40,997 nt of DNA from Clostridiales bacterium (GTDB lineage Bacteria; Bacillota; Clostridia; Christensenellales; UBA3700). Both the position numbers and the translations under genes were made by a program. The stretch spans positions 1-40,997 of the forward strand of contig SVHF01000017.1 in the NCBI GenBank assembly GCA_015055975.1, written 5' to 3'. Within the stretch, counting starts at the first letter, position 1, and each line of letters begins with the position of its first letter. A model generated the notes under the pieces. It did no database searches. It had not been told where the DNA came from and saw nothing but the letters and a program-made list of their open reading frames with translations. Shown here piece by piece: positions 1,649 through 5,366 of the stretch.

Positions 1649-1907
1649 ATGTCAATAAGTGGATAATTGATTTATTAAATAATTGTCAAAAAACATGAAA
1701 TTTTTGCTAAAATCACAATTCTGGGTTGACTCTAACCACCACCACCACCACGCATACTTATATTGTAAAGAATATGTGCGTAAATATGTGGATAACTACA
1801 CGATATAGCGCACCCGTTGTTGATAACGATTGTTATTTTTCTAGATTTTGCACTGCATTTTGTGGATTTCGTTGTTGGCACAAATTAACTGTTTGGGGAC
1901 AATTGTT
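1649..1907. other. Intergenic stretch with an (ACC)n microsatellite, no gene seen
   Basis: This 259-bp region between the SPFH terminator and the lipoprotein start contains five ACC units around 1736-1752 and a short inverted repeat ATAAC-N4-GTTAT at 1823-1836. TTGTCA at 1683 with TAAAAT at 1708 is a promoter-like pair, but its spacer is 19 bp. Possible upstream start codons here (TTG 1726, ATG 1848) lack an SD and would displace the lipoprotein signal peptide from the N-terminus. I see no convincing gene or promoter. Confidence 0.5.
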
Positions 1908-4601
1908 ATGTTTAAAGCGAAATGGGTAAGCTTGATTTTGATACTAGTTTTAGTGGCTTCTTTGATGGTGCTATTATTAGCGTGTGGCAATGAAGATATA
2001 GATAATCCAGTTGAGACCTCCGGTACAACAGAAGATATAAATAATCCAGTTGAGACCCCCGGTACAACATATTATACAGTTACCTTTAACGATTACGATG
2101 GAACTTTATTATACGAAACAAGTGTTTTAGAAGGGACAATTCCAGAATATGCTAAATCAAATCCAACTAGAGCAAAAGATGCAAATTACAAATATATATT
2201 TAGAGGATGGTCTCCAAATTTAGAGAAGGTTACAAAAGATGCCACATATACAGCCCAATATTCTAAAGAAGATTTGCCATATAGTATTTCTTTTGATTTA
2301 AACGGTGGAAGTTCTATATCAGAGCTTAAATCATTTAAAACAGATGAGATAACAAAAGAAGATTTTGTTTATAACATAACTAAACAAAAATATGCTTTTA
2401 GAGGTTGGTCATATAACGGGCAAATTGTATTTAACAAGAATGGCGAGAAGGTTTATAATTTTACTCCAACCTCTAATATGATATTCAAAGCTGAATTTGA
2501 AGAGCAAGTTACTTTAAAAGTCTATTACACAGTATATAATCCAAACGATAATGAATTATTAGATACATTTGATACATTGCCAACTAATATGGGAAGTGTT
2601 TCTAAAACACGATCATATCCTTGGAATACAAATGTAAATTTATTTGCAAATCCAAATGAAGGTTACACTTTTGTTGGTTGGTATTATCAAAAGAATGGAA
2701 CAACGTATCCATTATCTAGCGAAGCCAATTATAACTATATGATGTGGGATGAAGATTTTACGGTAGAAGCTAGATTTAAATACACATTATATGATTTGAA
2801 AGTTTTGGCGAACCATCCGGAGAATGGACAAGTAATAATAAGAAACGATACTGTATATCAAAATACGAGTACAAAAGAAAAGTATTTCACAGAAAAGGTT
2901 ACTATTGCCGCTGTTACAAAAACTGATGTTAGATTCTTAGGTTGGTATGATGAAGACAACCATTTGGTGATAACAAATGCCGTTTATTCTTTTGATATGA
3001 TGAATAGAGATTATACATTAGAAGCTAAATGGGATTATTTTACTATATCTTACGACTTAGATGGTGGAGTTAATAATATTAATAATCCAACTTCATATAA
3101 TTCAAATATGAATAATATCCCATTATTGAATCCAACAAAAGAACTATATACGTTTGATGGCTGGTATTATAACAATGAGAAGGTTACAGAGATTGATACG
3201 CAAAACATTTGTGATATGCAACTTAAAGCAAAATGGGCATCATATACAGTCACAACGACAAGTAATAATACTTCAGCAGGTAGCACAAATTATTCAGCCG
3301 CTACAAAAGTGACGGCAGGTAATAATGTGACAATAACGGCTACAACGAATACAGGGTATACATTTGTTGGCTGGTATAAAAGTGGTGAACAAGTAACTAC
3401 AAATCCGTCTTATACATTTGCAATGCCAGCAAAGAACGTGATATATGAGGCTAGATGGAGCACCAATTCTTACACAATAACGATAGACAATCAAGCAATC
3501 TTCAATGGAGTGACAATTTCAGGCGTTACAAGCGGCAGCAGCTACGAATATAACTCAGTAATAGCGCTAACAGCCGCAGGTATACCAAGCGGATATACTA
3601 TAAAGTGGGAAAGAAGTGATGGAGTGAGTTATATTGGAGGTAGTTACGCATTTAATATGCCTGCCTGCGCTATAACTATTGCTATTACTATTATCACGGA
3701 GCCTTACGCAAAAGATGGCAATGTGGTGTACTTTGGTTCATATCCACAAACAAAGGTAATAGATAGTATGATAGAATCTGCTTTAAATTCTCAAAGAGGT
3801 ATATTGCCTACTGCAAGTAATTCTCAATCTTGGACAGATTATGGATACTATATAAATGGTTCTGTACGATCATATATGTGGTATAAAGATGTTGAATATC
3901 AAAATAACAAATATAGAGGCGTATATTTTATTCAATATAGGCCAGGCAATTGTCTATCTACTTCATCAGCATCTAATTCATACCAAGATGACAATGGCTA
4001 CCAAACATCAATAGTATATTGGTTTAAATTTGAACCGATTAAATGGAGAGTTCTTACAGAATCAGATGGTAAGGCATTATTGCTTGCTGATCTGATACTA
4101 GATTCGCAACATTATGAACCAAGACATGCTGACGTTGAATATAGTCATAATGGAGGAACAGGATATGCAAATAACTATGAATTATCACATATCAGAAGTT
4201 GGCTAAATGACAATTTTTATAACACAGCATTTAACGCAGAGGAACAAGCGCTTATAGCTACTGTAACAGTAGATAATAGTGTGTCTTCAACTGGATATTC
4301 ATCAAATAGTTATGCATGCTCAAATACAAGCGATAAGATATTCTTATTGTCATACAGCGAAGCGACAAATAGCAGTTATGGATTGAATAGCGATTCGGCA
4401 AGACAAGCAAAAGGCAGCGATTATGCTAAATCGCAAGGCTTATTATATAGTTATAATTGTTATTGGTGGCTTCGCTCACCTCATCCCGATCATGCTTACT
4501 TGGTGCGTGGCGTCGGCAATGGTGGCACCACCGACAGCCGATATGCGGTCGGAGATGCTGGCGGCGGGGTTCGTCCAGCTTTGTGGCTTCAAGAAATATA
4601 A
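1908..4601 (+). CDS. Surface lipoprotein with InlB B-repeats and a C-terminal DUF6273-like domain
   Basis: This 897-residue protein starts with a lipoprotein signal peptide: a charged N-terminus, a long hydrophobic stretch and the lipobox L-L-A-C with Cys26. It should therefore be lipid-anchored outside the cell. A short polar linker containing a duplicated D-N-P-V-E-T segment is followed by about six InlB/Listeria-Bacteroides-type B-repeats (about 60-545), each ending in a G-W motif and an A-x-[WYF] strand. The C-terminal ~260 residues begin with V-V-Y-F-G-S-Y-P-Q-T and end with W-W-L-R-S-P and G-V-R-P-A-L-W-L, typical of DUF6273. That fold resembles the C-type-lectin/FGE-like tips of diversified surface proteins. 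The ATG at 1908 is chosen because it puts the signal peptide at the N-terminus and GGGG lies 8 bp upstream. The last ~130 bp differ sharply in composition (see the separate entry). The ligand is unknown; an adhesin or receptor role is inferred. Confidence 0.85.
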   Translation: MFKAKWVSLILILVLVASLMVLLLACGNEDIDNPVETSGTTEDINNPVETPGTTYYTVTFNDYDGTLLYETSVLEGTIPEYAKSNPTRAKDANYKYIFRGWSPNLEKVTKDATYTAQYSKEDLPYSISFDLNGGSSISELKSFKTDEITKEDFVYNITKQKYAFRGWSYNGQIVFNKNGEKVYNFTPTSNMIFKAEFEEQVTLKVYYTVYNPNDNELLDTFDTLPTNMGSVSKTRSYPWNTNVNLFANPNEGYTFVGWYYQKNGTTYPLSSEANYNYMMWDEDFTVEARFKYTLYDLKVLANHPENGQVIIRNDTVYQNTSTKEKYFTEKVTIAAVTKTDVRFLGWYDEDNHLVITNAVYSFDMMNRDYTLEAKWDYFTISYDLDGGVNNINNPTSYNSNMNNIPLLNPTKELYTFDGWYYNNEKVTEIDTQNICDMQLKAKWASYTVTTTSNNTSAGSTNYSAATKVTAGNNVTITATTNTGYTFVGWYKSGEQVTTNPSYTFAMPAKNVIYEARWSTNSYTITIDNQAIFNGVTISGVTSGSSYEYNSVIALTAAGIPSGYTIKWERSDGVSYIGGSYAFNMPACAITIAITIITEPYAKDGNVVYFGSYPQTKVIDSMIESALNSQRGILPTASNSQSWTDYGYYINGSVRSYMWYKDVEYQNNKYRGVYFIQYRPGNCLSTSSASNSYQDDNGYQTSIVYWFKFEPIKWRVLTESDGKALLLADLILDSQHYEPRHADVEYSHNGGTGYANNYELSHIRSWLNDNFYNTAFNAEEQALIATVTVDNSVSSTGYSSNSYACSNTSDKIFLLSYSEATNSSYGLNSDSARQAKGSDYAKSQGLLYSYNCYWWLRSPHPDHAYLVRGVGNGGTTDSRYAVGDAGGGVRPALWLQEI
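4464..4592 (+). other. Candidate DGR-type variable region at the 3' end of the lipoprotein gene
   Basis: The segment encodes residues 853-895, from W-W-L-R-S-P to G-V-R-P-A-L-W-L. By count, 4471-4590 is about 62% G+C, and A is only about 17% in 4501-4560, in an otherwise strongly AT-rich gene. Between Pro858 and Gly887, 23 of 28 codons end in C or T (CAT, GAT, TAC, CGT, GGC, ACC, GAC, AGC and so on). This is what adenine-directed mutagenesis of AAY codons in a template repeat would leave. The GC-rich conserved end (about 4561-4590) would serve as the initiation end of the homology. No template repeat or reverse transcriptase is in the window, so the assignment is inference. Confidence 0.5.
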
Positions 4602-4616
4602 CGAGTAGGGGATTAT

Positions 4617-5366
4617 ATGAACAATCTATACGATAATGGCAATGGTTTATATTATGTTGTTAGTTTTGACAATAAAGTATTGATATATATTTGTGGGTAT
4701 AGTCGTCTGTACAATTCATTAGTAAAAGCTATTCAATCGTTGGCCAATAATATTATTAAAGATAATATTAGCAAAATCGATTATATAGTAGTTGCAAATT
4801 ATAACGAAGGAAGTATATGCGCGTTAAAAGCTTTGTTTGATAAAGCGAAAGAATTAAATATATCAATTCGTAAGGGTAGTGTGTTTTTCCCGGAGATATT
4901 AATCAATGGTGATGAAAATAATAAATGTCTAAGATGGCTAACAAAATTATATTTTAATTATAATTTGCAAAACGGGAAATATAAGAATTGTAGGTTGGCA
5001 TTGATAAACGATATGTTAGAATACAAAGCTGTGGCGTCTAGAGGTTTAAAGCAAGATATTAGTGATAGAAATGTATCAATTATAGCTTTGCCATTAAGCC
5101 ATAATATATCCCTCGTTTTTAAGTCGTTTAATAAAAATGATTCAGAATTAATGCGATGTATTGTTTCTCAAATAATAGAAAATTGGGAAAAGCATGAAAA
5201 AATATCAAAAGATGATGTTAATTCATTGTTTGCTGTTTCCAATGACAATCCGAGTATAATTCTTGTACATAAAGATAAATCTAAAATGGAGTTTTATTCA
5301 AGTAGAGAAGACAAATGGATACAACAATATGAGAATACAATCGAATCTATGCTTACAATTCCATAA
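4617..5366 (+). CDS. Unrecognised protein, possibly a metal-free metallo-beta-lactamase fold
   Basis: This 249-residue soluble protein has no signal peptide or membrane segment. It begins 15 bp after the lipoprotein stop with AGGGG at 4607-4611 as SD, so it is very probably co-transcribed with the lipoprotein. I do not recognise the family with certainty. Residues 10-80 read like the start of a metallo-beta-lactamase domain: strand, strand, then I-D-Y-I-V-V-A-N-Y-N-E-G-S at 54-66. In active members this position holds [ST]-H-x-H-x-D-H. Here the ligands would be Asn61, Asn63, Gly65 and Ser66, so no metal site is expected. The rest is mixed alpha/beta. A regulatory or structural role tied to the lipoprotein is a guess from adjacency only. 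Confidence 0.5.
   Translation: MNNLYDNGNGLYYVVSFDNKVLIYICGYSRLYNSLVKAIQSLANNIIKDNISKIDYIVVANYNEGSICALKALFDKAKELNISIRKGSVFFPEILINGDENNKCLRWLTKLYFNYNLQNGKYKNCRLALINDMLEYKAVASRGLKQDISDRNVSIIALPLSHNISLVFKSFNKNDSELMRCIVSQIIENWEKHEKISKDDVNSLFAVSNDNPSIILVHKDKSKMEFYSSREDKWIQQYENTIESMLTIP

Follow-up and report, generated by a model that had tools for sequence, protein, structure and literature searches.

Here we report that positions 4464-4589 of a 40,997-base stretch of DNA from a Clostridiales bacterium (the window, which is an entire contig) are probably the variable region of a diversity-generating retroelement (DGR), orphaned in this assembly and lying where a DUF6273 domain, part of a predicted surface lipoprotein, is predicted to bind its ligand. 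This gene tail differs from its gene in GC content and codon choice with borders at constant blocks, it closes a DUF6273 domain, relatives are hypervariable at the same place, and in some relatives this end of the domain is a DGR target. An earlier note, made from the letters alone, had proposed such a variable region. That reading stands as likely on the compositional anomaly, the domain end and the relatives, with neither a template nor a reverse transcriptase (RT) found; that a DGR wrote this particular copy is what we infer from them.

The predicted lipoprotein gene and its DUF6273 domain

The window comes from a draft genome of 1.59 Mb, which is split into 42 contigs and is 98.2% complete. 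The features discussed here are as follows.

1908..4601, + strand: predicted lipoprotein gene, 897 aa (ORF, Pfam, translation)
1908..1985, + strand: predicted signal peptide with a lipobox-like LLAC at its end (translation MFKAKWVSLILILVLVASLMVLLLAC)
4065..4592, + strand: DUF6273 domain (PF19789), predicted C-type-lectin-like fold (Pfam 3e-27, whole-genome search, structure model)
4464..4481, + strand: 5' constant block WWLRSP, conserved in relatives
4482..4565, + strand: proposed variable core of 28 codons, residues 859-886, 23 of them NNY
4566..4589, + strand: 3' constant block GVRPALWL, conserved in relatives

The ATG at 1908, which sits inside a longer TTG ORF, was taken as the start from the signal peptide. 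The protein consists, in this order, of the signal peptide, InlB/Listeria-Bacteroides repeats and the C-terminal DUF6273 domain (Pfam). By the lipobox rule for recognising lipoproteins, it is predicted to be a lipoprotein at the cell surface. The gene is flanked by NfeD and SPFH genes (ORFs, Pfam), with a UvrD/PcrA-type helicase gene further along, past one ORF without a Pfam match above cut-off, and because of these neighbours it looks chromosomal. A non-coding ACC/CAC trinucleotide run is present upstream of it at 1735-1751. The AlphaFold2 model of 3711-4601 had a pLDDT of 94.6 and its fold matches favour a C-type-lectin-like fold. The C-type-lectin fold on a lipoprotein that the earlier note had expected is thus supported as a prediction by the DUF6273 match, the model, the fold matches and the lipobox-like signal peptide.

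Composition and borders of the tail

The tail had been described as about 62% G+C and A-poor inside an AT-rich gene, and we confirmed this: 4464-4592 has 61.2% G+C and 14.0% A, as against 33.5% G+C and 36.7% A in the preceding part of the ORF (1848-4463). The strongest GC peak of the whole window is at 4464-4589. When the best-fitting GC-rich segment was sought in 1908-5366, it was found at 4465-4587, with a score not reached in any of 2000 shuffles of the gene's codons, and its borders match the constant blocks WWLRSP and GVRPALWL almost to the base, in agreement with the position originally claimed for it. The codons of both blocks are likewise GC-rich. The codon count for residues 859-886 also holds: 23 of 28 end in C or T (51% in the remaining gene; Fisher p 1e-3), the other five being NNR, and 13 of the 28 (46%) end in C, compared to 11% in the remaining gene (p 4e-6). 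The core contains nine glycines and no K, Q, E, M or W. Recoding the tail residues with the gene's own codon usage gave 49.7 ± 2.1% G+C, whereas 61.9% is seen, so residue choice accounts for only part of the GC excess. The GC jump of the window tail (+0.29) is the largest among 44 tabulated DUF6273 tails, a table which covers only tails fitting its motif.

Variability among relatives

The window protein was aligned with 32 relatives, taken from 120 proteins that were listed out of 2990 matches. Across the window protein and these 32 relatives, conservation within the domain is lowest over a 28-residue stretch that begins exactly at the first variable residue. In the 15 most similar of the 528 pairs, identity was 83-90% in the remaining domain and 15-63% in the 28-residue stretch.

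DGRs acting on DUF6273 ends in relatives

RVT_1 was present in 18 of 46 genomes of the family. Without regard to position, we scanned 16 family RT loci, together with three loci from phages, for repeats differing only at A of one copy. Tails of the WLRS...VRP or FGF type were recovered as targets at L110 of G020 (17 changes at A, 0 elsewhere), L111 of G015 (10 and 0), L112 of G040 (14 and 2) and L120 of G043 (13 and 0), as well as at the phage locus L022 (18 and 0); exact tests cover L110, L111, L112 and L022. The tail of the window sits at the C-terminal end of its predicted C-type-lectin-like domain, the end thus verified as a DGR target in relatives. An adenine-directed pair in another kind of target was found at L114 (13 and 0), and L116 (G041) has a template and a variable region beside the RT, with 34 A-changes and 0 elsewhere, in a target that is not DUF6273-like. 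Such pairs were absent from 12 of the 19 scanned loci; among the family RT loci six of 16 had one and ten did not. Comparing one DUF6273 locus per genome with the RT loci of that genome gave a pair in 3 of 15 genomes, all three previously identified, and a scan of the own loci of 28 near relatives gave no template.

The SQ motif is a marker of DGR RTs; GxxxSQ was present in nine of the 16 family RT loci and the SP form in four. The RT of L112 (2385-4091, G040) is DGR-like and carries a bAvd-like domain fused at its C-terminus (40.6 bits for Pfam bAvd, with a cut-off of 40), and L118 (4185-5885, G033) aligns with it along the same C-terminal extension.

Template and tail need not lie in the same assembly. 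The tail L041 of G029 was compared with a template on the phage contig L025, and 90 of 117 positions were equal, 23 were changed at A and four elsewhere; therefore, a tail in one assembly is explicable by a template in another. A DGR-like RT (L074) is present in G029 as well.

Codon signature of the tail

Eighteen template-matched tails had NNY fractions of 0.67-1.0, and K, Q, E, M and W were absent from 13 and present in five of them; the 18 include loose template fits, namely L232 (9 changes at A, 13 elsewhere), L193 (21 and 11) and L201 (18 and 10). The window tail, with an NNY fraction of 0.82 and none of these residues, is within the range of the 18, and its NNY-rich codons encode AAY-reachable residues. 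By comparison, nine further DUF6273 tails, from the same genome and genus, had NNY fractions of 0.43-0.68 and 3-5 K/Q/E/M/W residues; the genus has 11 DUF6273 places, of which the window and these nine were scored and G004:C57 was left out. The two classes overlap slightly in NNY, L014 having 0.68 and the lowest template-matched tails 0.67 and 0.68. NNY codons are common anyway in GC-rich hosts.

Searches for a reverse transcriptase and a template

The absence of a template repeat and an RT from the window, as noticed earlier, was borne out and extends to the whole assembly. RVT_1 gave no match at E<=10 in the own genome (the 98.2% complete draft, window included), a DGR-RT profile gave none there either, and BLAST of the whole assembly gave no near-copy of the tail. 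The profile was built from 8 sequences and at 1e-10 matches 61 of 396 genomes of the order. The earlier note had implied a remote, trans-acting variable region; the full-genome search for an A-rich near-copy of 4464-4592 and a DGR-type RT found neither, and a DGR elsewhere in this genome is not supported. Thus, neither the RT nor the template repeat of a complete DGR is found in the genome as assembled. In the four other genomes of the genus there was no DGR-like RT match, RVT_1 giving only a group II intron-like RT (G001).

We obtained the same outcome over wider sets. No template or near-copy of the tail was found in 46 family, 396 order or 391 class genomes, no near-copy in phage and plasmid records, and no template in viral contigs by exact end words or an A-tolerant pattern. 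The short matches listed were end words or other DUF6273 tails. Among 11 non-self matches in the order, L127 and L131 belong to different DUF6273 tails, and no such tail appears in the remaining nine in the register that was read; of two in the class, L258 is another DUF6273 tail and L259 holds no such tail. Nine viral stretches carry the 17-base start of the tail, and in three of them, L019, L022 and L025 from two contigs, a DGR template or variable region is present. The nearest template in register, that of L025, was rejected as the source of the window tail, with 61 positions equal, 30 A-changes and 38 other changes out of 129. Three stretches with the 3' end word contained no DUF6273 tail. 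A DUF6273 domain search of the viral contigs gave no relative, and tblastn against phage records gave two distant matches.

A scan of 248 loci, in which a control tail recovered its template at 84 of 117 positions, likewise gave no template to the window tail; the top score of 19.5 (2.0-8.0 for six shuffles) belonged to another variable tail. L083, L082, L094 and L081 beat the six shuffles but are homologous variable tails, and were rejected as templates. Comparison of third codon positions is weak for the window tail, since the nearest tails (L087, L030 and L031) differ from it at 12 of 28; third positions tie it to none of the compared tails.

DGR-like tails in genomes without an RT

DGR-like DUF6273 ends often occur in draft genomes without a DGR reverse transcriptase, which is a puzzle. 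Thirteen of 16 genomes with near DUF6273 relatives gave no DGR-RT profile match and three gave one, the completeness of these genomes not being given. Ten of these genomes have a tail with an NNY fraction of at least 0.8; an RT is present in two of the ten, and no fitting template was found in the sequence retrieved around either one. Within the family, G000 (the own genome), G005, G007 and G019 have tails with NNY fractions of 0.82-0.96 and no RVT_1 or DGR-RT match. G005 and G019 belong to different genera of the same family. Their RT-less tails (L030 and L031, respectively) differ from each other at codon positions 1/2/3 in 16/11/5 of 29 codons, as compared to 46/42/95 of 198 codons upstream (Fisher p 2e-4). 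Fixed third positions with free first and second positions would be the pattern left by a shared template lineage, and this third-position conservation therefore indicates that RT-less tails in the family can be real DGR products.

Origin of the tail

Ordinary recombination with a DUF6273 gene from a bacterium or phage of higher GC content, using the conserved blocks as crossover sites and involving no DGR step in this lineage, could also have placed a foreign tail in this gene. The codon choice of the tail is indeed foreign to the gene, DUF6273 genes are present in 29 of the 46 family genomes, several with GC near 50%, and both RT and template are missing from the genome. However, no near-copy that could represent the donor was found in the own, family, order or class genomes, phages or plasmids, and recombination by itself leaves the NNY pattern unexplained, although the donor tail could itself have been DGR-written. 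We regard recombination as unlikely. Still less probable is that the tail is just a glycine-rich loop in a rapidly evolving lectin-like domain, with its GC and NNY content resulting from residue choice and selection alone. Glycine does make up 9 of the 28 residues, and two further tails in the genus have a high GC content relative to their gene without NNY richness, L029 (1-3315, G004; jump of +0.14) and L033 (G001; 50% GC in a gene of about 30%), but the gene's own codons predict far less G+C than is seen and the codons of the constant blocks are GC-rich too. An assembly artefact, with reads from another DUF6273 gene joined into the lipoprotein gene, seems highly improbable: in a 42-contig draft the conserved blocks on either side could misjoin, but the reading frame and the domain run unbroken across the tail, and the same 897-aa protein forms a database cluster of 2 members, with a longest contig of 7599 bases, which is possibly not an independent assembly.

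If the tail is an orphaned variable region, a DGR reverse transcriptase would have copied an A-rich template RNA with random bases at A positions, and the resulting cDNA would have replaced 4464-4589, importing the GC-rich constant bases and NNY codons of the template. The binding face would be altered while WWLRSP and GVRPALWL stay fixed, and a 3' block of the GVRPALWL type may serve as the homing-initiation site. The element may since have been lost, leaving a fossil, or may lie on a prophage, plasmid, other mobile element or contig missing from the assembly. We also consider, as a doubtful proposal, that chromosomal DUF6273 lipoproteins here and in related bacteria are rewritten in trans by DGRs of passing phages or mobile elements, with no resident DGR. 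If so, the surface-binding repertoire of the bacterium would be edited by the mutagenesis machine of another element. Rewriting of tails by mobile elements would amount to hypermutation acting from one genome on another, in a form open to testing; if it does not occur, the tails would be fossils of lost DGRs.

Relation to known systems

RT-less DGR variable regions as such are already in print. The available text on Nanoarchaeota (PMC4372165) and Thiohalocapsa PB-PSB1 (PMC10907252) describes adenine-mutated variable regions at loci that lack an intact RT, and interprets them as fossils or remote targets; in those cases mutation at adenines or a matching template is shown, whereas no template was found for the window tail. 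In four species of gut prophage there is a second variable region located away from the RT, according to excerpts of PMC12629997. Faecalibacterium phage DGR targets have their variable region at the C-terminal end of DUF6273 (PMC11792537, in part), and AlphaFold models of tentaclin domains resemble C-type lectins (PMC10743442, in part). As far as these portions go, both are phage proteins and targets of DGR cassettes, unlike the predicted chromosomal InlB-repeat lipoprotein described here, for which no RT or template was found. Among the closest known systems is also the variable lipoprotein of the TvpA type from Treponema denticola (PDB 2y3c). The IgA peptidase of Thomasclavelia ramosa (PDB 9qa6) has an N-terminal DUF6273 domain, which differs in being part of a protease; the term "diversity-generating" is absent from the paper on that peptidase (PMC12237041). 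In the open-licence literature searched, we found no description of DUF6273 lipoproteins that act as chromosomal DGR targets without an RT. The present reading would add a predicted InlB-repeat lipoprotein to the DUF6273 targets of DGRs.

Six homologues of the DUF6273 end (P0030, P0031, P0034, P0035, P0073 and P0082) bear PF13676 and have hypervariable WLRS...VRP/VVP tails, and one PF13676-bearing homologue is named TIR domain-containing protein. DUF6273 may thus act as a diversified sensor in defence-like proteins as well.
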